Position numbers and translations under genes: made by a program. Under the pieces are notes generated by a model. That model was given only the letters and a program-made list of their open reading frames with translations. It did no database searches and had not been told where the DNA came from. Below are positions 11,200 through 48,618 of a DNA stretch of 64,000 nt, piece by piece. Each line of letters starts with the position of its first letter. Position 1 is the first letter of the stretch. Origin of the DNA: Caldinitratiruptor microaerophilus (GTDB lineage: Bacteria > Bacillota > Sulfobacillia > Symbiobacteriales > ZC4RG38); NCBI RefSeq assembly GCF_025999835.1, contig NZ_AP025628.1:1178001-1242000 (forward strand), written 5' to 3'.

Positions 11200-11265
11200 T
11201 CAGCCGCCGGGCAATCGATACGCTGCCGTCCCATGCGCGACGCTGGCCTGCAGGGGGAGTGCCGG

Positions 11266-31303: not shown

Positions 31304-32650
31304 TCAGCGCGTCCGCGACACGGAGGCGATCGCCTCCTCGAGGATGTCCAGGCCCTCGTCGAGCTGCTCGTCGGTGATCGCCAGGGGGGCCAGGAACCGG
31401 ATCACCTGGTTGTGGTGGCCGGCCTTCATGAGGATCAGGCCGTTCTCGTAGCACCGCTTGAAGATGGCCGCGGTCTCCTCCGTGGCCGGCTCCTTCGTCG
31501 CGCGGTCCTTCACCAGCTCGATGGCGGCCATGGCGCCGAGCCCCCGTACGTCACCCACCAGCTCGAAGCGCTCGTGCCAGTCCCGGAAGCGGGCCAGGAC
31601 GCGCTCGCCCACCGCCTGTGCCCGCTCCACGTACCGGTCGCGCTCCATCACCTCGATGACCTTGAGGGCGGCCGCGCAGGCGACGGGGTTGCCGCCGTAC
31701 GTACCGCCCAGGCCGCCGACCTGCGCGGCGTCCATGATCTCCGCCCGCCCGGTGACGGCGGAAATCGGCAGCCCGTCGCCCAGCGACTTGGCCATCGTCA
31801 CCAGGTCCGGGACCACGCCCGAGTGCTCGACGGCGAAGAAGCGGCCCGTGCGCCCGAAGCCGGTCTGGATCTCGTCCGCGATGAAGACGATGCCGTACTC
31901 GTCGCACAGCGCCCGGAGGCCGCGCAGGAACTCCGGCGGCTGGACCAGGAATCCGCCCTCGCCCTGCACCGGCTCGATGATCAGCGCGGCCACCTTGTCG
32001 GGGCCGATCTCGTCCTCGATCGCCCGGCGGACGTCTTCCAGGGCGTGGCGGGCAGTGGCGGCCGGATCGGCAAAGGGCGAGCGGTAGGGGTAGACGGCGG
32101 GGAGGCGGTAGATCTCCGGGGCGAAGGGCCCGAAGCCGTACTTGTACGTGGAGACCTTGGCCGTCAGGCTCATGCCGAGGAGCGTGCGGCCGTGGAAGGC
32201 GTGGGTGAAGGTGATCACCGCCGGGCGCCCGGTGTAGCGGCGGGCGAGCTTCACCGCGTTCTCCACGGCCTCGGCGCCGCTGTTGAAGAGAGCGGTCTTC
32301 TTGGGGAAGTCGCCCGGGGTGAGGCGGTTCAGCTCCTCGGCCAGTCGGACGTACGGCTCGTACATGGTGACGTGGAAGCAGGTGTGCAGGAAACGGTCCA
32401 CCTGCTCCTTGACCGCCGCGACCACCTCGGGGTGGTTCGCGCCCAGGTTCAGGACGCCGATGCCACCGGCGAAGTCGAGAAACACGTTTCCGTCGACATC
32501 CGTGAGCGTGGCGCCCCGGGTCTCGGCGGCGAAGATGGGGGCGACGTTGGCCACGCCCCGCGGAACCGCCGCCTCGCGCCGGCGCAGGAGCTCCTGGGAA
32601 CGCGGACCGGGGATGGGCGTGCGGATCTGCACCGTCCTGGACACACGCAT
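31304..32650 (-). CDS. gabT: 4-aminobutyrate aminotransferase-type class III aminotransferase, copy 1
   Basis: 448-residue PLP enzyme: ALFNSGAEAVENAVKLARRY, THAFHGRTLLGMSL, EPVQGEGGFLVQP, FIADEIQTGFGRTG and the PLP lysine in TMAKSLGDGLPISAV near residue 290. The motif set is that of GabT, which converts GABA (or similar omega-amino acids) with 2-oxoglutarate to semialdehyde and glutamate. The protein is identical by eye to copy 2 (59021-60367); all DNA differences inside the gene are silent. ATG at 32650 follows GGAGGAG. It has lost its native upstream operon and now lies behind the island's minus-strand genes. Confidence 0.9.
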   Translation of the reverse strand: MRVSRTVQIRTPIPGPRSQELLRRREAAVPRGVANVAPIFAAETRGATLTDVDGNVFLDFAGGIGVLNLGANHPEVVAAVKEQVDRFLHTCFHVTMYEPYVRLAEELNRLTPGDFPKKTALFNSGAEAVENAVKLARRYTGRPAVITFTHAFHGRTLLGMSLTAKVSTYKYGFGPFAPEIYRLPAVYPYRSPFADPAATARHALEDVRRAIEDEIGPDKVAALIIEPVQGEGGFLVQPPEFLRGLRALCDEYGIVFIADEIQTGFGRTGRFFAVEHSGVVPDLVTMAKSLGDGLPISAVTGRAEIMDAAQVGGLGGTYGGNPVACAAALKVIEVMERDRYVERAQAVGERVLARFRDWHERFELVGDVRGLGAMAAIELVKDRATKEPATEETAAIFKRCYENGLILMKAGHHNQVIRFLAPLAITDEQLDEGLDILEEAIASVSRTR

Positions 32651-32702
32651 CTCTCCTCCGACTGGAACTTCGACGGGTTGTGCGCAAACGGCGGATGGAC
32701 GT

Positions 32703-32767
32703 CTACGACGGGAACACCCCGAGGTCCACCTCCTGGCCGATCCCGAACTGCCGGGCCCGCTCGTAGA
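32703..32767 (-). pseudogene. 3' fragment of the ornithine cyclodeaminase-like gene
   Basis: Encodes YERARQFGIGQEVDLGVFPS and stop, matching the C-terminus of the intact gene at 60420-61424 apart from one L-to-F change. The rest of the gene is absent because the repeat ends at 32767. Confidence 0.9.
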
Positions 32768-32912
32768 GTGGCAGCGCTTCTCCAGCGCCGAGACCATCCG
32801 GGCGCGGGCCTACCCCCGCCCGGCATCTGGATACACCCGGTGGAGCCCGGGACCAGCCGACGCCCTGCAGGCCCTCGACGTGCTCTACCGGGTTGTCCTC
32901 GGCCTTGACTGA
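32768..32912 (+). pseudogene. Truncated 3' end of an unidentified gene at the island junction
   Basis: Immediately after the repeat ends, the plus strand reads about 48 codons (WQRFSSAETIRARAYPRP through ALQALDVLYRVVLGLD) to a TGA, with strong third-position GC as in real coding DNA. It has no start and its 5' part is missing, as expected for a gene cut by recombination. Family not recognised. Confidence 0.4.
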
Positions 32913-33002
32913 GATCCCGAGGGGCCGGTACGGTATCAGCGCTACCCCGTAACCCCTCAACTAAAAGGTTGTCTATTCTGTCTCTTCGGCTTGGCGCCCA
33001 CG

Positions 33003-34412
33003 TCAGACCAGCGGAGGTGGCCGTCGGTGCCAGCCTGCCACCTGTTCATAGGCATGGGCCACCCGGATCACAGTGGATTCATCAAAGGGACGCCCGATGA
33101 TTTGTAAACCAATGGGGAGCCCGCCCCGACTAAACCCGCATGGGATAGAGATCGCCGGCAAACCGGACTGGTTAGCGGGGGCGTTCAGCCGCACGAAAGC
33201 GTCCAACACGGGTTCAGGCTGGCCCGCAACATTTACCTGCTCCTGGCCGATGGGCGGGGCCGGCAGCGGGATGGTGGGGGCAGCCAGCACATCCACCTGC
33301 CCGAGGGCCTGCTCCATCTCCGCCGCAATCCGGGCCCGGATCCGCAACCCGTCTAGGTACTGCACGGCCGAAATCAACAGGCTACCCTCGAGGGTGCCGC
33401 GCAGTGCCGGGCTGTAATGCTCGGGCTGGCTGCGCAGGAACGGTACGTGCCAGGCGGCCGCCTCCGCCATGCAGACCACGTACTGGGCCGGCATGACATC
33501 CCGAAGGGCTGGAAGGTCCACCTCCATCACCCGTGCTCCCATTTCTGCCAAAATCCGGACGGCCCTGTATACCGCCTCGGCCACCTCTGGATCCACCCGC
33601 TCGAAGTACCAGTGCCGGGGGAGGCCGATCGTGATATCGCTAACCCCGGCACTCAGCTCGGCGCTGAAGTCAGGTACGGGTACGTTAGCGGAGCCGGGGT
33701 CCGCCGGGTCGTAACCGGCGATGACCTGCAGCAACAAGGCCGCATCGGCCACGCTTCGGGCCATGGGGCCGCAGTGATCCTGACTCCAGGCCAAAGGGAA
33801 AATGCCCTGGCGGCTAACTCGGCCGTAGGTGGGCTTCAGCCCCACCACCCCGCAGCAGGCAGCGGGAATGCGGATGGACCCGCCGGTGTCGGTACCTATG
33901 GCCACCGTGCAAAGGCCTGCGGCCAGAGCCGCCCCCGACCCTCCGCTGGAACCCCCGGGGATGCAGTCCACATTCCAGGGGTTGCGGGTCGGGCCGAAAA
34001 AGGGGTTGTTGGTCGTGATGCCGGCCGCAAATTCGTGGGTATTAGTCTTGCCCACTATGACCGCCCCAGCCTCCCGGAGCCGCACCACGACGGCAGCGTC
34101 GGTGTTCGGGACGAAGTCCCGCAGCACCCGCGAGCCGGCGGTGGTGCGGACCCCGGCGGTGCAGACCACGTCCTTGACCGCCACCGGAATCCCGTGCAAG
34201 GGGCCACGGTATCGGCCGCCGGCAATCTCCGTCTCCGCGGTACGGGCCGCCGCCAGCGCCTCCTCGGCGGTGACGGTAATATAGGCGTTGATTCGCGGTT
34301 CCACCTCCTCAATCCGCTTCAGGACCGCCGTGGTCAGCTCCACCGGGGACAGGTCCCGTCGGCGGATGCGGTCGGCGGCCTCGGTGAGGCTCATGTAGGC
34401 CAGGTCAACCAT
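33003..34412 (-). CDS. Amidase signature family hydrolase
   Basis: 469 residues. Hydrolyses an amide bond using the Ser-cisSer-Lys triad: Lys in GIPVAVKDVV near residue 75, the glycine/serine segment GGSSGGSGAALAAG near 150, and GTDTGGSIRIPAACCG with the acylated serine. Closest in style to GatA/AtzE-like amidases. ATG at 34412 is used; GTG at 34421 is an alternative. It overlaps the small gene at 34405-34602 by eight bases, an arrangement seen for amidases with a small partner subunit. Last gene of the island's minus-strand operon. Confidence 0.9.
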   Translation of the reverse strand: MVDLAYMSLTEAADRIRRRDLSPVELTTAVLKRIEEVEPRINAYITVTAEEALAAARTAETEIAGGRYRGPLHGIPVAVKDVVCTAGVRTTAGSRVLRDFVPNTDAAVVVRLREAGAVIVGKTNTHEFAAGITTNNPFFGPTRNPWNVDCIPGGSSGGSGAALAAGLCTVAIGTDTGGSIRIPAACCGVVGLKPTYGRVSRQGIFPLAWSQDHCGPMARSVADAALLLQVIAGYDPADPGSANVPVPDFSAELSAGVSDITIGLPRHWYFERVDPEVAEAVYRAVRILAEMGARVMEVDLPALRDVMPAQYVVCMAEAAAWHVPFLRSQPEHYSPALRGTLEGSLLISAVQYLDGLRIRARIAAEMEQALGQVDVLAAPTIPLPAPPIGQEQVNVAGQPEPVLDAFVRLNAPANQSGLPAISIPCGFSRGGLPIGLQIIGRPFDESTVIRVAHAYEQVAGWHRRPPPLV

Positions 34413-34602
34413 GGCGCTCACCCGCCCTAAGACAACGGACCAGTACCGGCTCCTCCGCTGGGCCCGGCCGGTGGCAGGCCGCCAGACCCTCCTTGATGGT
34501 CCGGGCAAAGGCAGCCGCCGCTTCCGCCGTCGCCGGGTCTAACTCCCGGTTGTAGAGCGCCTTCATCAGCCAGCGGGCCAATTCAGGGGTCACCTGCGAC
34601 AC
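34405..34602 (-). CDS. Small protein upstream of amidase, possible GatC/AtzG-like subunit
   Basis: 65 residues (VTPELARWLMKALYNREL, then a long Ala-rich helix ending RCLRAGERHG). It ends inside the first codons of the amidase gene, so the two are translationally coupled. Small helical subunits that stabilise amidases (GatC, AtzG) have this size and position, but no clear sequence match can be claimed. Role inferred from context only. Confidence 0.6.
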   Translation of the reverse strand: MSQVTPELARWLMKALYNRELDPATAEAAAAFARTIKEGLAACHRPGPAEEPVLVRCLRAGERHG

Positions 34603-34617
34603 GAATCCTACCCTCCT

Positions 34618-35892
34618 TCATTCCTGCCAGCCACACCATTCCACGATGAAGCTGGCCAGCACCTCGGCCACCTCGACCACCGAATCGATTTCCACATACT
34701 CGTCTACGCCGTGGAGCCGCTCGCCACGGGGACCGAAGTTCAGGGCGGGGATGTTCCAATAAGCGCAAAACCGACTGTCCAGTCCAGCCGTGGCGGCCAC
34801 CAGCTTGAAAGGACGGCCAGCCACCCGCTCGGCCGTCGCCTTGAAGGTGACCACCAGGGGATCGTTGCCATCCTGCAGCCAGGGTTCTGCCTGCCACCCA
34901 TACCACACCACCACAGGCGGGTGTTCGGCCAACCAGGGGTCGGCGGCGGCGGCCGCTGTGATGACCGCCTCCACCTCCTGCCGGATTCCGCCCAGGGTCT
35001 CCCCCGGCAGGAACGAGATCCGGCAGGTCAGTTCTGCCCAGCCCGGTACGGTGGAGGTCCAGTCGCCAGCTTGCATGGTTCCGATGTTCAAGTGGCAGCT
35101 CCGCCCCGTCTCCCGCCCGAAAAACTCGGGCGGATGGCGGCGCGCCCTCTCCTCGTCTAGGTCCAGGAGGGCTTGGTAGATGGGGATCATCTTGCCAATA
35201 GCGTTGACGCCCTGGTGGGCGAGGCCGGCGTGAGCGGTCCGCCCCGCCACCCGTACTTTGAAATAGGCCACCCCCACCATGCCAATGCAGATGTCGTCAA
35301 ACGGCTCGGTCACCACCATGCCGTCTGCCCGGTTCCCCCCTATCAGGCAGGCGAGGGTGCCCCCGGAGCCGCCGGCCTCCTCTTCGATGACGCTCTGCAG
35401 CTGTACGGTGCCCGATGGTCGAATGCCGACGTCGAGCACCGCTTTGAGGGCAAAGTAGTTGGCGATCAGGCCGGACTTCATGTCCATGGCCCCACGCCCG
35501 TACATCCGGTTACCGACGATCTGCGCCCCCCATGGGTCATAGGTCCACTGGTTGACGGGCTCGGGGGACACCACGTCGATGTGGCCGTTGAGGATTAGGG
35601 ACCGGCCCCCGCCCGCCCCGCGCAGCGTGCCCAGGACGTTTGGCCGCCCGGCGTACTCCCAGGGGGTTTCGCAATAGGCGGGATGGGCGGCGATCAGCTC
35701 CCGGTCGGCCGTAAAGGTTTCCACCTCCAAGCCCAGCCGCTCATACAACTGAGCCATGTACTGCTGCGCCTCCCCCTCCTGTCCAACGACGCTGGGGATG
35801 CGCACCACGTCTTGCAGGGCAGAGATCAAGTCATCCGCTTGTCGGCGGAGGTTGGCCCGCACCGCCGCCTGCACTTTCTCCAGCCTTGTCAT
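34618..35892 (-). CDS. M20 family metallopeptidase (ArgE/DapE type), paralogue 1
   Basis: 424 residues. Two-zinc amidohydrolase/peptidase: LILNGHIDVVSPEPV (H and D zinc ligands), YGRGAMDMKSGL (bridging D), VIEEEAGGSGG (catalytic and ligand Glu), and ERLHGVDEYVEIDS (last His ligand). The dimerisation lid domain lies between (HAGLAHQGVNAI). It resembles the other island M20 protein (44981-46252) closely, including GWQAEPW versus GWKAEPW, so they are duplicates with diverged substrates. Likely deacylates or hydrolyses an amide. 15 bases upstream of the small amidase partner gene. Confidence 0.9.
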   Translation of the reverse strand: MTRLEKVQAAVRANLRRQADDLISALQDVVRIPSVVGQEGEAQQYMAQLYERLGLEVETFTADRELIAAHPAYCETPWEYAGRPNVLGTLRGAGGGRSLILNGHIDVVSPEPVNQWTYDPWGAQIVGNRMYGRGAMDMKSGLIANYFALKAVLDVGIRPSGTVQLQSVIEEEAGGSGGTLACLIGGNRADGMVVTEPFDDICIGMVGVAYFKVRVAGRTAHAGLAHQGVNAIGKMIPIYQALLDLDEERARRHPPEFFGRETGRSCHLNIGTMQAGDWTSTVPGWAELTCRISFLPGETLGGIRQEVEAVITAAAAADPWLAEHPPVVVWYGWQAEPWLQDGNDPLVVTFKATAERVAGRPFKLVAATAGLDSRFCAYWNIPALNFGPRGERLHGVDEYVEIDSVVEVAEVLASFIVEWCGWQE

Positions 35893-35904
35893 GGAGCTTC
35901 CTCC

Positions 35905-36690
35905 TCAGGCGGAACGGGTGCTGGGGCGGCTGGGCGGCAGGCCGAATCGGCCGGCGCTGGCGCCCCCGTCCACGGTGATGACGGTGCCGGTTAAGTAGTT
36001 GGACGGATTGGAGGCAACCATCAGGCAGGCCGCGGCCACATCGGCGGGGGTACCCACCCGTCCCACAGGGACCTGGAGAGCAAAGCTGACCTTGTACTCC
36101 TCGGTCAGGTTGGAGCTGTCAATGATGCCTGGGGCGATACTGTTGACCCGGATCCCGTACTGGCCCAGCTCCATGGCGAGTGTCTGGCTAAACATGACTA
36201 CCGCCGCCTTCGAGGCGCAGTAATGCGCTGAGCCCACTCGTGCGATCCTGTAACTGCCTGAGGAGATAGTAATGATGTCGCCACCGGTGCCCTGCTTCAC
36301 CATCTGGCGGGCCACCGCCTGGCAGACCAGGAAGGTGCCCTTAGCATTGGTGTCGAAGACCAAGTCCCACTCCGCTTCGGTCATGTCCAACACTAGTGCC
36401 TCGGGATAGACGCCGGCGTTACTGATGCAGATGTCGATACCTCCCCAGGCCGCCACTATGGCGTCCACCATTCCGCGCACCCCTTCGGCGCTGCGCACGT
36501 CGGTGGCGTAGGTCAAAAGCCGATCCGGGCCGAATCCCAGTTCGGCTGCCGCTCTCTGCACCTGGGCGAGGTCCCTGTCGTGAATCATCACCCGGGCCCC
36601 TTCGGCCAGGAAAGCACGAGCAGTGGCCGCCCCGATGCCCCGACCCGCGCCGGTAACTAGGACGCGCTGATCACGCAGTGATTTCACCAT
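35905..36690 (-). CDS. Short-chain dehydrogenase/reductase
   Basis: 261 residues. Classical SDR: cofactor loop VTGAGRGIGAATARAF near residue 11, ISNAGVYPE, catalytic Ser in TISSGSYRIA and YCASKAAVV (Tyr-x3-Lys), then APGIIDSSN and a C-terminal LTGTVITVDGGA. Oxidises or reduces a hydroxyl/keto group with NAD(P). It abuts the next SDR (shared base 36690) and precedes the M20 gene by 12 bases. Substrate unknown. Confidence 0.9.
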   Translation of the reverse strand: MVKSLRDQRVLVTGAGRGIGAATARAFLAEGARVMIHDRDLAQVQRAAAELGFGPDRLLTYATDVRSAEGVRGMVDAIVAAWGGIDICISNAGVYPEALVLDMTEAEWDLVFDTNAKGTFLVCQAVARQMVKQGTGGDIITISSGSYRIARVGSAHYCASKAAVVMFSQTLAMELGQYGIRVNSIAPGIIDSSNLTEEYKVSFALQVPVGRVGTPADVAAACLMVASNPSNYLTGTVITVDGGASAGRFGLPPSRPSTRSA

Positions 36691-37436
36691 TACATCCAGC
36701 CCCCGCCATTCGGACTAATCACTTGGCCGGTGATGAACTCGGCCGCGTCGGACGCCAGGAAGCAGATGACGGCTGCCACATCTTCTGGCTGTCCGACCCG
36801 GGGCCAGAGCACCCACCCCGGCTGCTGCACGGTGCCTCGCCGACGGGACATCTCAGTATCGATTAGCCCGGGGGCGACGGCGTTGACATTGATCCGGTGC
36901 CCAGCCAGTTCCTTGGCCAGGCACTTGGTCAGCCCGATCACCCCAGCCTTGGCCGCCCCATAGTGGGTACTGCCTGCTAATCCACTCAAGCCAACGGTGG
37001 AGGCAAGGTTGATGATGTTGCCCCGCCCCTGCCGGATCATCAGGGGTACCACCGCCCGACACACGAGAAACACGCCGGTCAGGTCGATGTGGATCATGCG
37101 CTGCCATTCTTCCAGTGACATATCGGCCAGGCGGGTGCCCGTGCCGCCGATGCCGGCGTTGTTGACCAGCACGTCGATGCGACCGTAAGCTCGAACGGTC
37201 TCATCCACGGCCGCGGCTACGGCGACCGGATTGCCCACATCGATGTAGATGCCCAAAGCAGCCGGCCCTTGGGCGGTGCATTCGGAGGCCGTGGCCCAAG
37301 CCGTTTCCAGGTCCAAATCGGCGGCTACTACGGTGGCACCTTCCCGAGCCATGGCAACGGCCGTCGCCCGACCAATGCCCCGGCCTGCACCGGTCACTAG
37401 GACTACCTTGCCTTTCAGATTCATGTCTGTGGCCAC
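36690..37436 (-). CDS. Short-chain dehydrogenase/reductase
   Basis: 248 residues of the FabG-like SDR class: VTGAGRGIGRATAVAMA, VNNAGIGGTG, the Ser/Tyr/Lys set (LASTVGLSGLAG, HYGAAKAGVIG), APGLIDTEM and FITGQVISPNGG. GTG at 37436 is used; ATG at 37424 is possible and neither has a good ribosome site. It directly follows a decayed old-yellow-enzyme fragment, suggesting that the operon has been rearranged here. Confidence 0.9.
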   Translation of the reverse strand: MATDMNLKGKVVLVTGAGRGIGRATAVAMAREGATVVAADLDLETAWATASECTAQGPAALGIYIDVGNPVAVAAAVDETVRAYGRIDVLVNNAGIGGTGTRLADMSLEEWQRMIHIDLTGVFLVCRAVVPLMIRQGRGNIINLASTVGLSGLAGSTHYGAAKAGVIGLTKCLAKELAGHRINVNAVAPGLIDTEMSRRRGTVQQPGWVLWPRVGQPEDVAAVICFLASDAAEFITGQVISPNGGGWM

Positions 37437-37696: not shown

Positions 37697-38680
37697 TTAC
37701 AGCGATGGGAAACCGGGAATGGAATCGACCGACTCCAGGGCGTTGATGATGGCAATCACTAGGGCGTCAGCGGCAGCGGACCCGGCGATGTCCGTATCCT
37801 CCTCGGCGGAGACGCCGCCTGCGCTGAGCCGGCTACCGCCGCCCACCGAGAGGGCAAAGATGGTGTTGCCGTCGCACAAAGTGTAAATGGGCCGGAACGC
37901 CCGCGTCAGGCCGGCGTAGCCAGGCTGGCTAGCTTGCGGAGGCGGGTTTTGTGCAAGTGGAGGTTGGTGGCCACACAGGCAACGGTGGTGTTAGCGCCGG
38001 GCTCCACCATCTTGCTCACCCCGGCTGCCTCAGGCGGCCAAGTGCGTGGCCCGACCTGCGGGACATGCCGTACGAGATGATAGCCGCTGTGGGTGGCAGA
38101 GAGGTCATCGGTGGCCGGGTTGACGGCATCGCCTAGGGCGTTGATGACCACCAGAACGCCGACGATAGCGCCGTAGCCCAAGTCAACGCTAGCGGTGCCA
38201 GTGACGCCCTTCATCTTGATACCGCCCGGGAACTTGCCGCAGGTGCCGCCGGTGCCGGCTCCCACGTTACCTTACTCCACCGCCCATCGTGGGCGGCCGC
38301 TGCGGCCCGATATCCCCACTCGGGGGTCGGCCGCACCTTATTACTGCATACGCCCAGGTCGTAGATGGCGGCACTAGGCACTATGGGCACAACGCCAGCC
38401 CCGTAGTCGGTGCCGCCGCCCTGCTCCTCCAGGTATTGTATTGGCGGACGCCCGTGGTGGAGGCCAGGCCGAAGCGGCTGCCGCCGGTGAGCACCACGGC
38501 GTGCACCAGCGGCCCATGGTTTTCGGGCGCCAGCCCCTCGGTCTCGACGCTGCTTGGGCCGTCACCAAGCGCAGCGATGCCGGCGCTGGCTCCCCCCTCC
38601 GGAATGATGACCCTGACCCCGGTCAGGTTCTCCCGGTCCGTCACCTGTCCTACCCGGACCTGGGAAGATCGGTGATGGCG
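37697..38680 (-). pseudogene. Decayed P1 family peptidase (DmpA/L-aminopeptidase, S58)
   Basis: Family segments appear in the right order but in different frames: ITDLP, then VRVGQVTDRENLTGVRV to VHAVVLTGGSRFGLAS, then YLEEQGGGTDYGAGVVPIVP and AAIYDLG, then GAGTGGTCGKFPGG to GANTTVACVATNLHL, then GYAGLTRAFRPIYTLCDGNT to ALVIAIINALESV. At least four frameshifts (near 38,660, 38,440, 38,270 and 37,915) separate them. NTTV carries the residues around the autocleavage/catalytic site. These enzymes cleave N-terminal or beta-peptide amides. The gene is dead as sequenced. Confidence 0.85.
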
Positions 38681-39844
38681 TTATACCGACCGCTCGGCAC
38701 GGTCCATTCCTCCTGTCTCACGCGGGGGATACTGGGCTGCCCAGAATTCGGCGATCTGCCGCCCGGTGGCCAACCAGGCCCCGCGCTGGCGCAGGGCTGC
38801 GACTACCCGGCGCAGCATCTGCAGTCGGCCGGGTCGGCCGATGAACTGCGGGTGCATGGTCAGGTTGAACAGCCCGCCGTACTCCATCAGCCCGTCTAAC
38901 TCCTCTTTCCAAATCTGCTCCACCTCTGCGGCAGGTCGAATCGGGCGGGGTGTACGGGTGGAGAACATGAAGAATGGGGCGTCATCCAGTACCCACTGCA
39001 CAGGCAGCTCCAGGAGCGGAGCCCCCTCACCAGCATGCCAGTAAGGACGGATATCATCCATCAGGTTGGACGAGTACAGGAACCCAAACTTCCGGAGGAA
39101 CCGCAAGGTGCTGGGCGTGAACTCCCAGGCAGGGGAGCGGTAGCCCACGGGCCGGTAGCCGGTGAGGTTAGCCAGGATCTCCAGCCCTCGCTGGAGGACC
39201 GCCTCTTCCTTGGCCGGGTCGTTAGGGTCCGGCCACTCGTGCAGGTAGCCGTGATGGCCCAGTTCGTGGCCGCGGGCGGCGATCTCGCGTATCTCCAGGG
39301 GATACCTCTCTGCCACCCAGCCGGGCACAAAGAAGGTGGCCTTCACGTCCAGCTCATCTAATAAATCCAGGATCAGACCCAGGGCCACCTTGGGCCCGTA
39401 CCGGCCCTGGGACAGAACGCCAACCCGCTGAGCGTTTTCGGCCTCTCGGGAGATCCACAGCGATTCGCCGTCGACGTCGAAGGTCAACATGGCGGCCACA
39501 GCTGCCTCGCCAGGCCAGAGTGGTTTTGCGGTCATGGACGGAATACCTCCCACGTGGATGTCGGTGCTGGGAATGCCGGCGACGATGTAAGCAGTGGAGT
39601 CCACATAGGCCAAGGTGGTAGCGAAAGTGGACGGCGCGAAGATCTCGTCACCATGGTTAAACTGAGCCTCGGACGCCTGCACAGCGGCAAGCACTTCGGG
39701 GCTGCACTGGGTCTTGGGCGTCCTCGGGCCGGCCTGCGGGTCACCTTTTCCTACTAGGTACCCTGGATGGTCCCGTCTAAACCGGGTGGCAGGGACCTCC
39801 CAGATGTAAGCAGGCTCTAGGTAAGACACTAGGGCCTGGCTCAC
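38681..39844 (-). CDS. Polysaccharide deacetylase-like protein with an unrecognised N-terminal extension
   Basis: 387 residues. Residues about 104-387 are a NodB-type deacetylase: metal motif LTFDVDGESL, GHELGHHGYLHEWPD, RSPAWEFTP and LTMHPQFIGR, closest in style to the PuuE/HP0310-like subgroup that acts on cyclic amides or acetamido groups. The first ~100 residues (SYLEPAYIWEVPATRF to GIPSTDIHVGG) match nothing recognised. The GTG at 39844 is well supported by GAGGAGG seven bases upstream and a GTGA overlap with the livM stop. An internal ATG at 39535 with GGGAGGT could give the deacetylase alone. Confidence 0.8.
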   Translation of the reverse strand: MSQALVSYLEPAYIWEVPATRFRRDHPGYLVGKGDPQAGPRTPKTQCSPEVLAAVQASEAQFNHGDEIFAPSTFATTLAYVDSTAYIVAGIPSTDIHVGGIPSMTAKPLWPGEAAVAAMLTFDVDGESLWISREAENAQRVGVLSQGRYGPKVALGLILDLLDELDVKATFFVPGWVAERYPLEIREIAARGHELGHHGYLHEWPDPNDPAKEEAVLQRGLEILANLTGYRPVGYRSPAWEFTPSTLRFLRKFGFLYSSNLMDDIRPYWHAGEGAPLLELPVQWVLDDAPFFMFSTRTPRPIRPAAEVEQIWKEELDGLMEYGGLFNLTMHPQFIGRPGRLQMLRRVVAALRQRGAWLATGRQIAEFWAAQYPPRETGGMDRAERSV

Positions 39845-40914
39845 GCGCCTGCCTCCTCGGAGTCTGACCCGCTGACTTCCTCCTTGGTTTCCTCCTTAGG
39901 ACCGAACCACAGCTTGAACACGTCCGTCATCGTGGGCACCACCCCACGGGGCATGGTGACAACGAACAGGACCATGGCAGCACCTAGCAGTAGCAACCGG
40001 AACCGGTCCACGTCTTTGAGCAGTTCGTTCAGTACCGTGAGCAGAAGCGTACCAACGATGGGGCCACCAAAGCTCCCCCAGCCGCCGATGACCAGCATGG
40101 CCAGCAGATTGGTCATCTGGGCGAAGCTGAGCATGCCTGGCGCCATGACCTTCAGGTAGTGGCCGTAAAAGGCGCCAGCTAGACCGGTAAACACGGCAGA
40201 GATGAAGAAGAGCAACAGCTTGTAGCGGAATGGGCTGATGCCTCGGGAGACGGCGTAGGCCTCCGAGTCGCGCAGCGCCTTGAAGGCTAACCCGACCCGC
40301 GAGTTTACCACTCTGAAGATTGAATAGGTAGAGACAGCGAACAAGACCAGGGCCACCCAGTAGTAGGCCATAAGCTCATGCTCGGGCCCCAGTCGGTCCA
40401 GCCCTAACGACGGCACGCGCAAGCCAAACCCGCCGCCGGTAATCTTCGTGTCATCGGTGACAATCGTCAGGTAGATGATCTGGTGAAACGCCAGGGTCAG
40501 CAGCACGACGTATACGCCGCGCAGCCGCAGTACAGGCAGGCCCAAGAGCAAGCCCACCACCCCAGCCACCAGTGCGCCCACGGGCATGGTGATCCAGGGG
40601 TTGACGTGTGCGTACACGGCCAGCATGCCGGAGGCGTAACCACCGACCCCGAATAACGCCAACTGGCCGAAGGACGGTATTCCCCCGTAACCCATGACCA
40701 GGTTCCACATCTCGTTCACCACGGCCCAGATAAAGAAGCTCACGGCGGTGTGCAAGACATACGAGCTGTTCACGAATACTGGCAGGACCAGCAGGACCAG
40801 AAAGATCAGGCCCCAAGTGCTCCAGCTCCACTCCTGCCACGGGGCAGCGCCAGGTGCCAGGGTTAGCCGGCGGTTCAATCCACCGGACTCCAACGCGGTC
40901 ACATGGTGTCTCAC
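39841..40914 (-). CDS. livM: Branched-chain amino acid-type ABC transporter permease LivM (island system)
   Basis: 357 residues, about nine membrane segments: MWNLVMGYGGIPSFGQLALF, LRLRGVYVVLLTLAFHQI, the coupling segment VGLAFKALRDSEAYAVSRG, GAFYGHYLKVMAPGM and GGWGSFGGPIVGTLL. An acidic C-terminal tail (KEETKEEVSGSDSEEAGA) is unusual. GTG at 40914 overlaps the livH stop (GTGA); the longer frame upstream lies inside livH and is not used. Confidence 0.9.
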   Translation of the reverse strand: MRHHVTALESGGLNRRLTLAPGAAPWQEWSWSTWGLIFLVLLVLPVFVNSSYVLHTAVSFFIWAVVNEMWNLVMGYGGIPSFGQLALFGVGGYASGMLAVYAHVNPWITMPVGALVAGVVGLLLGLPVLRLRGVYVVLLTLAFHQIIYLTIVTDDTKITGGGFGLRVPSLGLDRLGPEHELMAYYWVALVLFAVSTYSIFRVVNSRVGLAFKALRDSEAYAVSRGISPFRYKLLLFFISAVFTGLAGAFYGHYLKVMAPGMLSFAQMTNLLAMLVIGGWGSFGGPIVGTLLLTVLNELLKDVDRFRLLLLGAAMVLFVVTMPRGVVPTMTDVFKLWFGPKEETKEEVSGSDSEEAGA

Positions 40915-41789
40915 AGCCGCCGTGCCTCCCCCAAGCCGAACAGACCATTGGGTCTGACGATCAGCACAACGATCATCACGAGAAACAGAACCTGCAGGGA
41001 CCATTTCACGCCGAGGTACAGGCTGACCAAGGCCTCCAGCAGGCCAATCAGGTAAGCCGCCCACATGGTACCCTTTACGCTCCCCAGCCCGCCGAAAATG
41101 GTGACGAGCAGGCTCTTGAGCAGGGGCGGCCCGCCCATGGTGGGCGAGAGAAAGTAAATGCCGGAAAGCAGCACCCCTGCTACGGCGGCCAGGGCGGTGC
41201 TTATCACCATGACGATGGTGAAGGATCGTTTGACCGGTACGCCCATCAGCCGGGCGGCGGTCATGTTCTGGGCGATGGCTCGGATAGCTAGGCCATGACG
41301 GGTCCTGTACAGGAACAGATGCATCATTAGTAGCACGCCCACCGCCACGGCGGCGATGACCAGATCTCGGAAAGAAACGTTTAGCGGGCCTACTTTGAAC
41401 CCGCCGGGGACGATCTCGGGCAGGGTCTTGTTGCGGCCGCCGAAAGCGAGTAGTACGGCATTTTCGAGTACGATGCCGACGCCGACGGTGGCAATCAGGG
41501 TGTTGTTCTCCCAGCCCGGCCGCTCAAGGAGAGGGAGCACCACCATATACTGGAGGATGTACCCTACCAACCCCATGGCGGCCGCAGCCACCGGGACTCC
41601 GATCAGGGGGTGAATGCCGGCGGTGGTTACCACCAACCACGCTACGTAAGCACCGGCCATGAAGATGCTGCCGTGGGCTAAGTTCAGCATCCGCAGCGCA
41701 CCCCAGATCAGGGTCAGGCCCGTTGCCACCAGGGCGTATATGGAGCCCAGGAGAAGACCGCTGTATATAGCTTGGGTAAGCCCTGGCAT
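40911..41789 (-). CDS. livH: Branched-chain amino acid-type ABC transporter permease LivH (island system)
   Basis: 292 residues, about eight membrane segments: LLLGSIYALVATGLTLIWGA, LNLAHGSIFMAGAY, the coupling segment HGLAIRAIAQNMTAARLMGV and IFGGLGSVKGTMWAAYLIG. ATG at 41789 is preferred because AAGGAG lies eight bases upstream; the GTG at 41825 that overlaps livF is an alternative. Pairs with LivM. Confidence 0.9.
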   Translation of the reverse strand: MPGLTQAIYSGLLLGSIYALVATGLTLIWGALRMLNLAHGSIFMAGAYVAWLVVTTAGIHPLIGVPVAAAAMGLVGYILQYMVVLPLLERPGWENNTLIATVGVGIVLENAVLLAFGGRNKTLPEIVPGGFKVGPLNVSFRDLVIAAVAVGVLLMMHLFLYRTRHGLAIRAIAQNMTAARLMGVPVKRSFTIVMVISTALAAVAGVLLSGIYFLSPTMGGPPLLKSLLVTIFGGLGSVKGTMWAAYLIGLLEALVSLYLGVKWSLQVLFLVMIVVLIVRPNGLFGLGEARRL

Positions 41790-41821
41790 GGTTCCAACTC
41801 CTTCACGGCCACTGGCGGTCG

Positions 41822-42529
41822 TCACCCGAGATAGGCAGAGAACAGTGCTTCATCCATCAGCAACTCGCCCGCCTGCCCCTCCTTGACAAGGGACCCGCTC
41901 TCCAGCAGGTACACCCGCTGTGCCACGTGCACGGCATGCGTCGCGTTCTCGTCTACCAGCAGGATTGACAGGCCACTCGCCGCGATCTCCTTGATCTTCG
42001 TGTATACCTCTTCGATGACGATGGGCGCCAGGCCAAGGGAGGGCTCGTCGATCATGAGCAACTTGGCGTCGCTCATCAGGCCTCGACCGAGGGCAAGCAT
42101 CCGGCGTTCGCCGCCGGAGAGGGTGCGCGCCAGTTGGTTCCGCCGCTCCCCCAGCCGGGGAAAGAGACTGTAAACACGGTCCAGCTTTTCGCCCCGCCTC
42201 GCCCAGGCCCGAGGCAGGTAGGCGCCCATCAGGAGGTTCTCCTCCACCGTCATCTCGGGAAACGGGAGGTCGCCCTGGGGGATGTGTACGACCCCGGCGG
42301 CGGTAATTTCCTCTGCCTCGAGGCCGGAGATGGTCCTGCCCTCAAACTTGATCTCTCCGGCGGTCAGCGGTACCAGGCCGCTGATCGCCCGCAGAAGGGT
42401 GGTCTTGCCGTGGCCGTTGGGACCGAGGATGACCACCGCCTCACCTTGGTTCACGTGCATGGAAAGGTCGTGCAGCACCACCGAACCGCCGTACCCGCAG
42501 CGGATCCCAGACACTTCGAGCAGTATCAT
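41822..42529 (-). CDS. livF: Branched-chain amino acid-type ABC transporter ATPase LivF (island system)
   Basis: 235 residues: Walker A GPNGHGKTTL, GVVHIPQGDLPFPEMTVEEN, a canonical TLSGGERRMLALGRGL signature, Walker B LMIDEPSLGLAP and the switch LVDENATHAVHV. The histidine in Walker A (GHGKTT) is an uncommon substitution for A or S. Two bases after livG. Confidence 0.9.
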   Translation of the reverse strand: MILLEVSGIRCGYGGSVVLHDLSMHVNQGEAVVILGPNGHGKTTLLRAISGLVPLTAGEIKFEGRTISGLEAEEITAAGVVHIPQGDLPFPEMTVEENLLMGAYLPRAWARRGEKLDRVYSLFPRLGERRNQLARTLSGGERRMLALGRGLMSDAKLLMIDEPSLGLAPIVIEEVYTKIKEIAASGLSILLVDENATHAVHVAQRVYLLESGSLVKEGQAGELLMDEALFSAYLG

Positions 42530-42531: not shown

Positions 42532-43323
42532 CTACCCCCCTTTCAGGGCTGCGACTAGGTCTCTGGCCTGCTCGCCGAGGTAGACTGCCACTACCCGCTC
42601 ATCGCGGATGACATCGGACGGGTTGCCCTCTGCCAGCTTTTCGCCGTGGTGGATGATTAGTAGCCGGTCTGCCAGGGCGAGAAGTGCCTTCATCACGTGC
42701 TCGATGATCAGCACAGTGACGCCGGCGGCGTTGACTTTGCGCACCAGTTCCACCAGTTGCTCGCGCTCTGCCCGGTTCAGGCCGCCTACCGGCTCGTCCA
42801 GCATCAGCAACTTCGGCCGGGTGGCCAGGGCAGAGGCGATCATCAGCCGCTTCTTGTCAAAGACCGAAAGTGTCTCCGCTAGCTGAGCCTGCTTGTCGAG
42901 CAGCCCCACGAACTCCAAGGCCGCCAACGCCTCGTCGATTTCTTCCGGCCGGAACCGCAGGGTGGGAGCAACGCTCCCACCCTTGACGCTCCCACCCTGT
43001 CGGCCAAAGGCGCTGCCGACCAGGGCGTTGGCCAACACGCTCTGGGTCCCGAAGACCACCGGGGTCTGAAAGGTACGGGCGATGCCGCGGTGGCAGACCT
43101 CTTCCGGTTGAAGCTGCTGGATCTCCTCCCCCCGGAACCGGATGGTACCGCTGGTTGGGGGTGTATGTCCGGAAATCATGTCAAACAACGTGGTTTTGCC
43201 TGCACCGTTGGGACCAGCAATCCCGTAGACCTGCCGCTCCGCAACGGAGAAGGTCAGGTCCTTGTTTGCCTCCAGCCCGCCGTACCGCTTGGTCAGACCC
43301 TGGACCTCGAGAATCACGCCCAT
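42532..43323 (-). CDS. livG: Branched-chain amino acid-type ABC transporter ATPase LivG (island system)
   Basis: 263 residues: Walker A GPNGAGKTTLF, GIARTFQTPVVFGTQSVLAN, Walker B LMLDEPVGGLN and the H-loop IIEHVMKALLALADR. The signature reads LSVFDKKRLMIASAL rather than LSGGQ. A short GGSVKGGSVAP stretch near residue 115-125 is encoded by a perfect DNA hairpin. Pairs with LivF. Confidence 0.9.
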   Translation of the reverse strand: MGVILEVQGLTKRYGGLEANKDLTFSVAERQVYGIAGPNGAGKTTLFDMISGHTPPTSGTIRFRGEEIQQLQPEEVCHRGIARTFQTPVVFGTQSVLANALVGSAFGRQGGSVKGGSVAPTLRFRPEEIDEALAALEFVGLLDKQAQLAETLSVFDKKRLMIASALATRPKLLMLDEPVGGLNRAEREQLVELVRKVNAAGVTVLIIEHVMKALLALADRLLIIHHGEKLAEGNPSDVIRDERVVAVYLGEQARDLVAALKGG

Positions 43324-43341: not shown

Positions 43342-44679
43342 CTAGGCGAGCCAGGGTGGCAGTTTGAATTGGCCGGTCGTGTACGGTTCCGGGCTGACCA
43401 GGACATGTTTCTTGTTCTGGATCTGGTACGTGAGGTGGGGCATGCCCAGGGAGGGATCCTTAGTGTACTCGGGATACGGCCGACCAGACAGGTCGCTTTT
43501 GTCAAAGGCCATGGTACCGCAGACGCCCCGGTGGATAATATTTTCCATAATCGAGCAGACCTTGCGGGTATCGGTGGGGTCGCCTGCCATGGCCACGGCC
43601 CGCAGGTAGACGTTGGTCATGTCATAGAGGGAGCCGGCGTTGGCGCCGCCCGGCTCTGCCCCGAACTTCTGCCGGTACCGCTGCTTCCACGGCTCGGCGT
43701 AGGAGTCTGGCAGGATACCGATGACCGTAGACCAGATGACACCGTTGGCGGCGTCCCCGGCCATCTCCAGGTACTCGGGGATGGAGGGGCCGTACTGCTG
43801 GTAGAGAAGCGACGGGGTCGGATCCTTGACAAACTCCTTGGTGAACAATGCCAGGTCACTGGGCGCATAATCAGTGATGAAGATCAGGCCTGGGGGATCC
43901 TTCCGGATTTTGGCCAGGGTGGGGCCCCAGTCTGCTACCGGGACGACCACCCTCTCGTAGATGTTGACGGTCCAGCCCCGCTTCTCGGCCTCAGCCTTGA
44001 ATGTGTCGGCAATACTGATACTGTACGGGTTGTCGGAGGTGATGAGGGTGAGTTTTTTATTGTACGGCTTCCACTGGCCGGACTCGATCAGTTGATCCAT
44101 GTAGGCGGCAAACCCAATACCGTACCACACCTCTGTTGGGTCGCCCTGGAAGATCATCCAGTACTTGTCCCGGTTTTCCCGCACCGGCTTGGCCGATGCC
44201 TCGGTGGTGTTCACGTGCATGTACGGGATCTTTGCCTGGGCTACCAGGTCGAACTCGGGGCCAGAGGAGACGTGGTAGCCCACGATGATGGCGTGGACCT
44301 TCTCCACCTCGATCAGCCGCTGGAAGTTGCTCAGCATCTTCTCAGCCGGCATCTCTTCCACGTCCAGGACCACCAGTTCGACCGGGATGCCGCCAACTCC
44401 ACCCTGGGCGTTGACCTCATCGATAGCCATCTGCAGGCCCCGCTGCATCTCAGTACCGTCGCCGGCTCCCCACCCAGTCAGCGGGAGCGAAGCACCAATC
44501 CGGATCTTGTCGACCTTGGTCTTCATCTGGGCGCCGGCGAGGTTGGCCTGCTGGGCGGGCGTGGCAACCATTCGACTAGCCTGGCGAGCCAGGAGTCCGC
44601 CAAGCACGAGACCGCCAACGCCGGCCACAGCGGCCGAGCGGAGCAGTTCGCGCCGCGAAAGCCTCTTGGAATCTGACAT
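43342..44679 (-). CDS. livK: Liv-type ABC transporter substrate-binding protein with Tat signal
   Basis: 445 residues. The N-terminus has a twin-arginine export signal (KRLSRRELLRSAAV followed by a Gly/Ala/Leu-rich core), which is unusual for this family, then a Peripla_BP_6 fold: IRIGASLPLTGWGAGDGTEM, VVLDVEEMPAEKMLSNF, HAIIVGYHVSSGPEF and VNTTEASAKPV. No lipobox cysteine, so it may stay membrane-anchored by its signal or be released. ATG at 44679 with AAGGAGG eight bases upstream. First gene behind the minus-strand sigma-54 promoter. Ligand unknown. Confidence 0.9.
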   Translation of the reverse strand: MSDSKRLSRRELLRSAAVAGVGGLVLGGLLARQASRMVATPAQQANLAGAQMKTKVDKIRIGASLPLTGWGAGDGTEMQRGLQMAIDEVNAQGGVGGIPVELVVLDVEEMPAEKMLSNFQRLIEVEKVHAIIVGYHVSSGPEFDLVAQAKIPYMHVNTTEASAKPVRENRDKYWMIFQGDPTEVWYGIGFAAYMDQLIESGQWKPYNKKLTLITSDNPYSISIADTFKAEAEKRGWTVNIYERVVVPVADWGPTLAKIRKDPPGLIFITDYAPSDLALFTKEFVKDPTPSLLYQQYGPSIPEYLEMAGDAANGVIWSTVIGILPDSYAEPWKQRYRQKFGAEPGGANAGSLYDMTNVYLRAVAMAGDPTDTRKVCSIMENIIHRGVCGTMAFDKSDLSGRPYPEYTKDPSLGMPHLTYQIQNKKHVLVSPEPYTTGQFKLPPWLA

Positions 44680-44763: not shown

Positions 44764-44779
44764 AGCAAAGGTGGTGCCA
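44764..44779 (-). promoter_or_regulatory. Sigma-54 promoter of the island liv operon
   Basis: Minus strand TGGCACCACCTTTGCT, matching TGGCAC(N5)TTGC with exact spacing, 85 bases upstream of the substrate-binding protein gene. Confidence 0.85.
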
Positions 44780-44840
44780 AGTCCCCTGATGCGGATACAT
44801 ACAGTGTCTAACCCGGTGAACGTCCCTGCGGGTCGCCAGA

Positions 44841-44860
44841 TTCACACATACATGTGCGAA
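44841..44860. promoter_or_regulatory. Palindromic enhancer candidate between divergent sigma-54 promoters
   Basis: TTCACACATACATGTGCGAA, a near-perfect inverted repeat (TTC-N-CACAT / ATGTG-N-GAA). Its centre is about 84-91 bases from the -12 elements of both flanking sigma-54 promoters. It probably binds the activator encoded at 46293-47744. Confidence 0.6.
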
Positions 44861-44927
44861 TGTGAGCAAGTCGAAGGTGTAACCCGTCGTCCCACTCCTC
44901 CTTAGCGATGGGCTATCATCCCGCTAC

Positions 44928-44943
44928 TGGCATGCAAATTGCG
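44928..44943 (+). promoter_or_regulatory. Sigma-54 promoter of the M20 peptidase gene
   Basis: TGGCATGCAAATTGCG with the exact -24/-12 spacing (GG 44929-44930, GC 44941-44942), 38 bases before the ATG at 44981. Confidence 0.85.
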
Positions 44944-44980: not shown

Positions 44981-46252
44981 ATGGTCACTGCCGACCTGCG
45001 CAGCCGGATTGACCGGCACATTCAGAAACACCGCGACCAACTCATCGAGTGGGTGGCGGCGGCGGTACGCATCCCCAGCGTCACTGGCCGGGAGTCGGCC
45101 ATGCAGGAATACGTGGCCAGGCTTTACGCCAGCATGGGACTGGAAGTCATCCGCCATCAACCTGTAAGGGAGCAGGTGGCGGATCACCCAGCCTTCGTCG
45201 ATTCCGGTATTCCGTTTTCCAACCGCCAGAACATCATCGGCATCCTCCGCGGGCGCACCGACGCGCCGTCCCTGACCTTGCACGGCCATGTGGACGTAGT
45301 CTCCCCGGAGCCCGTGGATCAGTGGAACCATGACCCCTGGGGAGCCGAAATTGTCGGCAATCGCATGTACGGCCGCGGCGCCGGCGACATGAAAGCCGGA
45401 CACATGGCCAACGCCTTTGCGCTCAAGACCCTGCTGGATTTGGGGCTAAAGCCGCGCGGCACTGTCATGCTGATGAGCACCGTTGAAGAGGAAGCCGGGG
45501 GCGGCGGCGGTACGTTAGCTTGCATGGTAAGCGGGTTTCTGACCGACGGGTTTGTGACAACCGAACCCCACAGTCTGAACCTGACCATCTCACACGCTGG
45601 CGTGCTCTACTTCCGGGTCAAGGTACAGGGCAGGACTGCGCATGCTGGGCTAGCCCATACCGGGGTGAACGCTATTGTCAAGATGCAGCCGATCGTCCAA
45701 GCCCTCTGGGAACTGGACCAGAACCGGGGACAGATGGTTCGGTTTGCGCTGTATGAAGAGGGAAGTGGCAGGTCGTGCCATTTGAACCTGGGTACCCTGC
45801 GGGCCGGCGACTGGCCGTCCACGGTGGCCGGCTGGGCCGTCCTGGAGTGCAGGATCGGGTTCGTCCCCGGTGAGACCAGCGGGGAGATCCAGGCGCTGGT
45901 TGAGCGGACAGTGCGCGAAGTGGCCGCCGGTGATCCGTGGCTAGCAGAGCATCCCCCGCAGGTAGAGTGGTTCGGCTGGAAGGCGGAGCCCTGGTACCAA
46001 GATCCAGACCACGCTTATGTCAGGGCGTTCAAGTCGGCGGCCGAGGCTGTCCTGGGCCGGGAGGTACGGATCCAGGGCCGGGCAGCGGCCAACGATGCGC
46101 GGTTTACCGACTATTTTGGACGGGCGGGAGTGGCCTTTGGCCCTATCTGCGGCAACATGCACGGAATCGACGAGTGGGTAGACCTAGATAGCGTGGTGGA
46201 TACAGCCAGGGTCTTGGCGTACCATATCGCCGAGTGGTGCGGCCTGGAATAA
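44981..46252 (+). CDS. M20 family metallopeptidase, paralogue 2
   Basis: 423 residues with all zinc motifs: LTLHGHVDVVSPEPV, YGRGAGDMKAGH, TVEEEAGGGGG and NMHGIDEWVDLDS. The lid-domain motif GRTAHAGLAHTGVNAI is shared with the paralogue at 34618-35892. ATG at 44981 is preferred over the longer frame because GGGAGGT lies six bases upstream. It is transcribed divergently from the liv operon from its own sigma-54 promoter, so both M20 enzymes should be induced together. Substrate probably an N-acyl amino acid or dipeptide-like amide. Confidence 0.92.
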   Translation: MVTADLRSRIDRHIQKHRDQLIEWVAAAVRIPSVTGRESAMQEYVARLYASMGLEVIRHQPVREQVADHPAFVDSGIPFSNRQNIIGILRGRTDAPSLTLHGHVDVVSPEPVDQWNHDPWGAEIVGNRMYGRGAGDMKAGHMANAFALKTLLDLGLKPRGTVMLMSTVEEEAGGGGGTLACMVSGFLTDGFVTTEPHSLNLTISHAGVLYFRVKVQGRTAHAGLAHTGVNAIVKMQPIVQALWELDQNRGQMVRFALYEEGSGRSCHLNLGTLRAGDWPSTVAGWAVLECRIGFVPGETSGEIQALVERTVREVAAGDPWLAEHPPQVEWFGWKAEPWYQDPDHAYVRAFKSAAEAVLGREVRIQGRAAANDARFTDYFGRAGVAFGPICGNMHGIDEWVDLDSVVDTARVLAYHIAEWCGLE

Positions 46253-46292: not shown

Positions 46293-47744
46293 TCAGAATC
46301 GGCGCTTTCGGTTGGCGCCAGTGTACTTTTTCAGCTTCCGCACCACTGTGGAGTGGCTAACCCCCAGTGCCTGCCCCATCTCCTGGGTGGTGGCGTACAG
46401 GCGACTGGCCAGCAGCAGCAGCTGTTCTTCCACCAACCGGACAGCATCCCGGAGGGGCACCAACCCCTGTACGACAACGGGCTGCCCTTCCGATTGTTGA
46501 GTCAGCAGCCCGGACCGGCCGGCCAATCCGTTCTGAAACTCCTGCGGCAGGTCCGAGAGGTGGATGACCGGCTGTTCGACCAACACCACCAGCCGTTCGA
46601 CAAGGTGCTCCAGTTGCCGGACGTTGCCGGGCCAGGGATAGGTTTTCAGCGCGGCCATCGCCGCCTCTGAAAACCGCTTACGGCGCCCGTGCAGCCTGGC
46701 AAACCGCTCCAGAAACAGTTCCACCAGCGGAGCGATATCTTCCGGCCGTTCCCGCAGCGGTGGCACCTCGATAGGCAGTACGTTCAGGCGGTAGTACAGG
46801 TCTTCGCGGAACCGGCCCTCCCGGACCATGGCTGCAAGGTCCCGATTGGTGGCGGTGATGATGCGCACATCTGCTCGGATGGGTTCAGTGCCGCCAACCC
46901 GCGTGAAGGTCCGATCCTGCAGCACATGAAGCAACTTGACCTGCAGGCTGAGCGGCAGTTCACCAATCTCGTCTAAGAACAGCGTCCCGCCCTCGGCCGC
47001 TTGTAGGTAGCCGGCCTTGCCGCCTCGTTCCGCACCGGTAAAGGCCCCGCGTTCGTACCCAAACAGGGCAGACTCAAACAACGACTCCGGGATGGCCCCG
47101 CAGTTGACTCGCACGAAGGGTGCCCGACAACGTGGGCTGTGGCGGTGGATGGCCCGCGCTACCACTTCCTTGCCCACACCGGTCTCCCCTAGGATGAGCA
47201 CTGGGGAACTGACCGCCCCAACTTTGCGCACCCACTCCCGGACCTGCCGCATCAGCGGGCTGACCGCAATCATCTCGTCTTGGGGCCCGGAACTGCGCTG
47301 TTGCGGGACATCCGAAAGGGCCCTGCTGAGCAGGTGTGCGTCGGCCGCAATGGCGGAAAGAAGTTCGGGGTCTTCGACTAGTTCCGTACCCAGGCCCAAT
47401 ACATGCCGGGACCGTCCCCCAGAGGGAAACCAACGCATGAGTAGCAATCGGCCCCGCAACGTCCGGCACAGGCTTGCGGTCGGGTAGCGCGGCACCACCA
47501 GCGGCGCCTCCGCCAGGACACCGGTCAGAAGGTCGTAGATCAACCGACCCACCAATTCCTCGTTCGAGCAGCCGAAAAGGTGCAGGGCTTCCCCCTCGGA
47601 GTAGAAGACCTTACCAAGGGGGCTGACCAGGGCATACCAGTGCACTCCTAGTTCGGCCATCTTCCGGGGATGCGTCAAGAGTAGGTTGGCGTCCCGCTGG
47701 ATAGGTACCGAGTCGAGTGCAGTGGCTCGTTCCGGTCGAGTCAC
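46293..47744 (-). CDS. Sigma-54-dependent transcriptional activator with PAS-like sensor
   Basis: 483 residues. N-terminal PAS-like domain (about 25-140: LGVHWYALVSPLGKVFYSEG, FGCSNEELVGR), AAA+ domain with Walker A GETGVGKE near 186, GAFTGA near 231 and Walker B TLFLDEIGEL, and a C-terminal helix-turn-helix (TTQEMGQALGVSHSTVVRKL). GAFTGA shows it can contact sigma-54. GTG at 47744 with GGGAGGG seven bases upstream is chosen. Its gene faces the M20 gene and it probably activates both divergent sigma-54 promoters. The sensed ligand is unknown. Confidence 0.92.
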   Translation of the reverse strand: MTRPERATALDSVPIQRDANLLLTHPRKMAELGVHWYALVSPLGKVFYSEGEALHLFGCSNEELVGRLIYDLLTGVLAEAPLVVPRYPTASLCRTLRGRLLLMRWFPSGGRSRHVLGLGTELVEDPELLSAIAADAHLLSRALSDVPQQRSSGPQDEMIAVSPLMRQVREWVRKVGAVSSPVLILGETGVGKEVVARAIHRHSPRCRAPFVRVNCGAIPESLFESALFGYERGAFTGAERGGKAGYLQAAEGGTLFLDEIGELPLSLQVKLLHVLQDRTFTRVGGTEPIRADVRIITATNRDLAAMVREGRFREDLYYRLNVLPIEVPPLRERPEDIAPLVELFLERFARLHGRRKRFSEAAMAALKTYPWPGNVRQLEHLVERLVVLVEQPVIHLSDLPQEFQNGLAGRSGLLTQQSEGQPVVVQGLVPLRDAVRLVEEQLLLLASRLYATTQEMGQALGVSHSTVVRKLKKYTGANRKRRF

Positions 47745-47763: not shown

Positions 47764-48546
47764 CTAACCGCTCCTGGGAGCACCCAAGTACTGCGAGATG
47801 GAACGGGCCGTGGCCCGCACCGCCTGCGCAATCTCGTACTTGCGCCCTCGCACTCGTTCGATTAGACCGGCCACGCCCACACCGGCCACCACGCGGCCCG
47901 TGTGGTTGAAGATGGGTGCGGCCACCGCGGCCAGCCCGTCGTGCACCTCTTCCTCCGTGTAGGCAAAGCCGTCTGCCCGGATCTGCGCCAGATCCCGCAA
48001 CAACGTGTCCGGATCCGTCACAGTTCGGGGACCCGCGGCCTCCAGCGGCCCCTCCTGAAGGTAGGCCGCAATCTCTTCCGGCGGCAGAAAGGCCATCAGA
48101 GCCTTGGAGGTGGCCCCCGCGTGCAGCGGCGAGGTCATTCCCACCTGCATAGCCACGTGGGCCCCCACCGGTGGGTCGGCCCGGTCGATGAGGACAACGG
48201 AGCGCTGGGCACGTACCATCAGGTAGGCACACTCGCCCACCGTGTGGGCGAGCGCCCGGAGGGGCTCCCGCCCCTGTTCCAACACGGCAAGCCGTTTGAG
48301 CGCGGCCTGCCCGATCTCCACGGCCCCCAACCCCAGGTAATACTTGCGGGTGGCCGGATTCTGGTCCACCACGCCTCGCTCGTACAACGTGCGCAACAGA
48401 GAGTGCACAACGCTGGGAGATTCATGCAGAGCACGAGCTAGTTCGGACACTCCCCAGTCCTGGCTGTTTTGGGCTAGAACAAAGAGGATGGCAAGAGCCT
48501 TATCTACAGCTCCTACCTTGCGTACGGTCTTCGAACGAGCCCCCAT
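47764..48546 (-). CDS. IclR family transcriptional regulator
   Basis: 260 residues. Winged helix-turn-helix at the N-terminus (AVDKALAILFVLAQNSQD, WGVSELARALHESPSVVHSL) and the IclR effector domain (LHAGATSKALMAFLPPEEI, GFAYTEEEVHDGLAAVAAPI). Regulates small-molecule catabolic genes. It is 19 bases upstream of the sigma-54 activator gene on the same strand and may be cotranscribed with it. ATG at 48546. Confidence 0.9.
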   Translation of the reverse strand: MGARSKTVRKVGAVDKALAILFVLAQNSQDWGVSELARALHESPSVVHSLLRTLYERGVVDQNPATRKYYLGLGAVEIGQAALKRLAVLEQGREPLRALAHTVGECAYLMVRAQRSVVLIDRADPPVGAHVAMQVGMTSPLHAGATSKALMAFLPPEEIAAYLQEGPLEAAGPRTVTDPDTLLRDLAQIRADGFAYTEEEVHDGLAAVAAPIFNHTGRVVAGVGVAGLIERVRGRKYEIAQAVRATARSISQYLGAPRSG

Positions 48547-48618
48547 CCAGATACCACCGCCTTCCGAGACCACATTCGCTATTGTCAAATGGGATTCGCC
48601 AAGAGCGAATGATTTCCT

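Follow-up and report, generated by a model that had tools for sequence, protein, structure and literature searches.

Probable outward-facing sigma-54 promoters flanking a palindrome, a candidate shared enhancer, between an ABC-transporter operon and an M20 deacylase gene in a thermophilic Firmicute

The 64-kb stretch of DNA analysed here (the window) contains two sigma-54 promoter elements that face outward from one intergenic region, one towards an ABC-transporter operon and the other towards an M20 deacylase gene, with a 22-bp palindrome almost midway between them. The transporter-side promoter is very probably real and the deacylase-side promoter probably so. The sigma-54 activator encoded nearby, at 46293-47744, is somewhat favoured as the protein that binds the palindrome as a site common to both promoters, and its service to both operons from this one site is plausible by position and gene neighbourhood. 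The three elements are as follows.

44779-44764, minus strand: predicted sigma-54 promoter of the ABC-transporter operon, TGGCACCACCTTTGCT, GG-N10-GC exact
44840-44861, no strand: candidate shared enhancer (UAS), 22-bp palindrome ATTCACACATACATGTGCGAAT, with nine of ten arm pairs and a 2-bp centre
44928-44943, plus strand: predicted sigma-54 promoter of the M20 deacylase gene, TGGCATGCAAATTGCG, GG-N10-GC exact

A sigma-54 promoter is expected to have GG at -24 and, after N10, GC at -12, in a sequence near TGGCAYN5TTGCW, and its start would lie approximately 12 bp downstream of the GC and need rpoN. The two divergent elements with exact GG-N10-GC spacing described in the original prediction are both present in the sequence and point outward. 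The left element has the full consensus TGGCAYN5TTGCW, and TGGCACCACCTTTGCT is the only site in 64 kb that matches YTGGCAC-N5-TTGCW, where 0.04 would be expected. The right element (TGGCAT...TTGCG) is the weaker of the two, with G following the GC where the consensus has A/T. The TGGCA-N6-TTGC pattern occurs three times in the window versus 0.28 expected in third-order Markov sequence; two of these matches are the promoter pair, and the third, at 11184, is found a short way downstream of a different activator gene. Transcription is predicted to start near 44753 (minus) on the transporter side and near 44954 (plus) on the deacylase side, and both positions precede good ribosome sites and ATG codons. 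A consensus scan of the spacer between the elements found no sigma-70-like promoter.

The genome (3.60 Mb, single contig) encodes the sigma factor itself: rpoN, on whose presence the original prediction depended, was identified with PF04552 (E 1.4e-61), together with 14 full-length sigma-54 activator domains and a few partial ones. The strict pattern TGGCAYN5TTGC occurs 23 times genome-wide versus 6 for a reversed-pattern control, and such a site lies at a distance of 2.5 kb or less from 11 of the 14 activators, compared with a mean of 0.40 and a maximum of 5 in 20,000 trials of random placement. Strict divergent pairs less than 400 bp apart number two against 0.015 expected by chance, and the pair at 44764-44943 is the only one with a gene on each side. 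The other consists of C1:77705 (minus, L021) and C1:77949 (plus, L022), 244 bp apart, and has no gene on the corresponding strand in front of C1:77949; this orphan site either matches by chance or drives an unannotated RNA. It is very unlikely that both elements are coincidental and neither is used by sigma-54: a few strict matches per genome are indeed expected by chance, but the presence of rpoN, the enrichment of 23 versus 6, the co-localisation with activators and the rarity of divergent pairs make the sigma-54 reading sound, and the spacer free of sigma-70-like promoters and the fit of the elements to their genes add to this support.

That only the transporter-side promoter is truly of the sigma-54 type, the deacylase gene being read from an unrecognised promoter and its element being a chance match, is quite improbable. 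Such a reading draws on the weaker right element, on the expectation that approximately 6 of the 23 strict sites are due to chance, and on the orphan at C1:77949, which indicates that strict matches can be spurious. However, the right element lies 53 bp from a good start codon with GGGAGG, its 15-mer TGGCATGCAAATTGC recurs identically at C1:3471373, 0.9 kb from another activator, and the scan of the spacer gave no sigma-70-like site.

The genes on either side of the spacer are as follows.

38681-39844, minus strand: polysaccharide-deacetylase-fold hydrolase, partly like allantoinase PuuE
39841-41064, minus strand: LivM/UrtC-type permease (longest frame; the true start is probably further downstream)
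40911-41825, minus strand: LivH/UrtB-type permease
41822-42529, minus strand: LivF-type ABC ATPase
42532-43323, minus strand: LivG-type ABC ATPase
43342-44679, minus strand: substrate-binding protein (Peripla_BP_6) with an RR-type signal, ATG at 44679 after AAAGGAGG
44981-46252, plus strand: M20 ArgE/DapE-family deacylase, ATG at 44981 after GGGAGG; NF005306 and TIGR01910 above cut-offs

Taken together, the leftward transporter and hydrolase genes and the rightward M20 deacylase suggest that an amide, N-acyl or peptide-like compound is taken up and hydrolysed. Further along the strand of the transporter operon, the region 31304-37436 (minus) encodes two SDRs, a second M20 deacylase, an amidase and a class III aminotransferase; the second deacylase is 53% identical to that at 44981, and these genes may form one amide-catabolic cluster with the transporter operon. 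Between them, at 37697-38644 (minus), a gene of peptidase family S58 (DmpA-like) appears to be split among different frames, with two of the pieces matching PF03576; it is either a pseudogene or a sequencing error within the same catabolic cluster.

The activator gene nearest to the promoter pair is convergent with the deacylase gene and is preceded by a gene of the IclR family.

46293-47744, minus strand: sigma-54 activator with a PAS-like N-terminus, an AAA+ domain with GAFTGA and a TyrR-type HTH (HTH_50)
47764-48588, minus strand: IclR-family regulator, 20 bp from the activator gene and probably on one transcript with it

The AAA+ domain of the activator possesses Walker A and Walker B motifs together with the GAFTGA loop, and its C-terminal HTH matches HTH_50 (E 9.8e-10) with helices that are confident in the predicted model. 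The N-terminus reaches an E value of only 0.23 against Pfam PAS, while it has a PAS-like order of strands and helices in the model and aligns with homologues. The putative PAS-like sensor, the GAFTGA motif and the TyrR-type HTH mark this protein as a competent activator and the likely owner of the palindrome. Its best relatives elsewhere share 46-58% identity.

The presence of the central palindrome and its near-midway position were borne out, but the extent originally given to it (44841-44860) was too short, as the repeat is 22 bp long. Its centre, at 44850.5, is 3 bp from the promoter midpoint at 44853.5, and 73 bp separate it from the GG of the left promoter and 79 bp from that of the right. 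The palindrome is thereby placed at about -98 (left) and -103 (right) from the predicted starts, the usual distance for enhancers, as had been proposed. When the 147-bp spacer was shuffled, a palindrome of this kind arose with p = 0.0047 anywhere and p = 0.0008 within 10 bp of the middle, values that are optimistic because the arm and loop lengths were fixed after the palindrome had been seen; a looser search for the best inverted repeat gave a weaker chance probability of 4-12%. The palindrome is the only strong inverted repeat in the spacer. Ten palindromes of the same form occur in the 64-kb window, and one of the nine others, at 11055, has the sigma-54 site at 11184, which is linked to an activator, downstream of it. 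A genome-wide search, suggested as a check in the original prediction, found the palindrome as a single copy apart from one match with three mismatches, and one-mismatch matches were present in 2 of 153 other genomes of the class. Neither TGT-N10-12-ACA sites of the NifA, FhlA or Clostridiales type nor TyrR-box-like sites were found in the spacer, and the search for a close relative with the same arrangement among the genome contigs, the class and a phylum sample gave none. The direct repeat GTSTAACCCG was also observed on both sides of the palindrome (44806 and 44877), with approximately 0.3 such pairs expected by chance by our own estimate.

The enhancers of the activator's relatives bear on whether it would recognise this palindrome. 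Beside genes for activators whose recognition helix reads NQSTVVRK or DQSTxxRK, the motif RATGCA-N4-TGCATY was found upstream of the sigma-54 site with two mismatches or fewer in 17 of 18 promoters, against 0.33 in shuffles, a contrast that is somewhat inflated because the motif was derived from those same promoters, which include several from closely related genomes. Inverted repeats that were GC-rich or stood directly after the activator gene were left out of these enhancers as possible terminators. The motif is often present in two to three copies, 90-240 bp upstream of the sigma-54 site (L091-L113, L071 and L088), and it occurs with two mismatches at two paralogues encoded in the genome that contains the window. 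In practice, this motif can help to find the targets of a large group of activators of the Clostridia type.

The recognition helix of the activator at 46293-47744 is SHSTVVRK rather than NQSTVVRK, and its spacer holds no significant RATGCA-N4-TGCATY site, the best having 3 mismatches in 12 positions (p = 0.11) where two or fewer were called for. In symmetric register the palindrome matches the motif at 5 of 12 positions; the CA-N4-TG core and its spacing are common to both, which speaks for the activator as its binder, and outside the core the palindrome differs. Among H-type activators in other genomes (L048, L049 and L054), no shared enhancer was found. The differences fit a changed specificity, but a palindrome bound by another protein would look the same. 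Since the helix differs, the relatives' motif is not significant and only the CA-N4-TG core is kept, the binding of the activator to the palindrome and the use of this site by both promoters are things that we infer.

A possible but unlikely alternative is that both promoters are of the sigma-54 type and answer to the same neighbouring activator, which would use other or weaker sites in the spacer; the palindrome would then serve as operator for a different factor, the simplest candidate being the IclR-family protein. IclR proteins bind palindromes, the iclR and activator genes are 20 bp apart, and GATTCACACATACATG, a half-match to the relatives' motif with three mismatches, overlaps the palindrome in another register, all of which agree with this alternative. 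It is mildly weakened by a search of the region upstream of iclR, the expected place for an autoregulatory site, which gave neither a copy nor a half-site of the palindrome, and a more natural target of the regulator is its own divergent neighbour, an M24 peptidase gene with an ABC transporter.

If the activator does bind the palindrome, sigma-54 RNA polymerase would wait in closed complexes at both promoters until the activator sensed a small molecule via its PAS-like domain. A dimer would bind the palindrome and then assemble the AAA+ ring, and looping of approximately 75 bp of DNA in either direction would open one promoter or the other. Because one activator would open either promoter, the genes for taking up an amide or N-acyl compound (ABC transporter) and for cleaving it (M20 deacylase and PuuE-like hydrolase) would be switched on together. 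Against this scheme, the distances of 73 and 79 bp differ by half a helical turn, so one side is possibly used poorly, and the right-hand -12 element has the G noted above. An improbable extension of this scheme holds that, within the family, the recognition helix (from NQSTVVRK to SHSTVVRK) and the enhancer (from RATGCA-N4-TGCATY to a palindrome with only the CA-N4-TG core) changed together, and that the ring, on a single dimer site with the promoters on opposite helical faces, chooses between the operons; if true, a single dimer site 73 and 79 bp from its promoters would constitute a built-in competition between two operons.

The arrangement is not new in kind because two such systems are established, hycA/hypA (FhlA) and orp1/orp2 (DVU2106). 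In Salmonella, the outward sigma-54 promoters of hycA/hypA are about 113 bp apart by coordinates and are both FhlA-dependent (PMC3844500), and fhlA is encoded nearby, in hypABCDE-fhlA (PMC8743547). The hycA/hypA region of E. coli and Salmonella thus resembles the present one in having two outward sigma-54 promoters in one intergenic region with an activator gene nearby, but it serves proteobacterial hydrogenase genes and uses FhlA sites, described as being of the TGT-N10-12-ACA type (PMC6615313), which the spacer here lacks. Similarly, the divergent orp1/orp2 operons of Desulfovibrio vulgaris are co-activated by sigma-54 and DVU2106, which binds palindromes (PMC3897727); divergent operons and palindromes as activator sites are shared with the present case, where binding is predicted, whereas orp1/orp2 has two palindromes and IHF sites and an unrelated gene content. 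GcsR of Pseudomonas binds three tandem TGTAACG-N4-CGTTCCG repeats (PMC4894688); like the activator at 46293-47744 it has a TyrR-type HTH, and its target is an amino-acid catabolic operon, but its repeats are not present here.

Clostridiales activators, including PrdR, XcyR and YpdR, are described in a survey as having palindromic enhancers next to operons for amino-acid and peptide catabolism, mostly 100-250 bp upstream, with the activator genes mostly beside their targets (PMC6615313), which favours the shared-enhancer reading. Both cases are Firmicute, whereas the motif, the HTH type and the operon differ. The same survey reports several palindromes at the targets of 198 of 263 activators (PMC6615313); that only one palindrome is seen in the present spacer counts against the shared-enhancer reading. 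Shared divergent enhancers do not appear to be a topic of that survey (PMC6615313). What differs here is the lineage, the gene content and possibly the enhancer sequence. With its two sigma-54 promoters and possibly one enhancer, the region is a compact and easily tested case from a lineage of thermophilic Firmicutes whose sigma-54 control has received hardly any study.

A second sigma-54 module was observed in the window at 9043-12027. It comprises an activator gene (9043-11022), two palindromes that overlap, ACGTCGCGACCTATGTCGCGACGT and TGTCGCGACGTTTTTCGCGACA, from about 11054 onwards, and the sigma-54 site at 11184, which precedes a gene similar to enoyl-CoA hydratase and an ABC operon of the branched-chain type.
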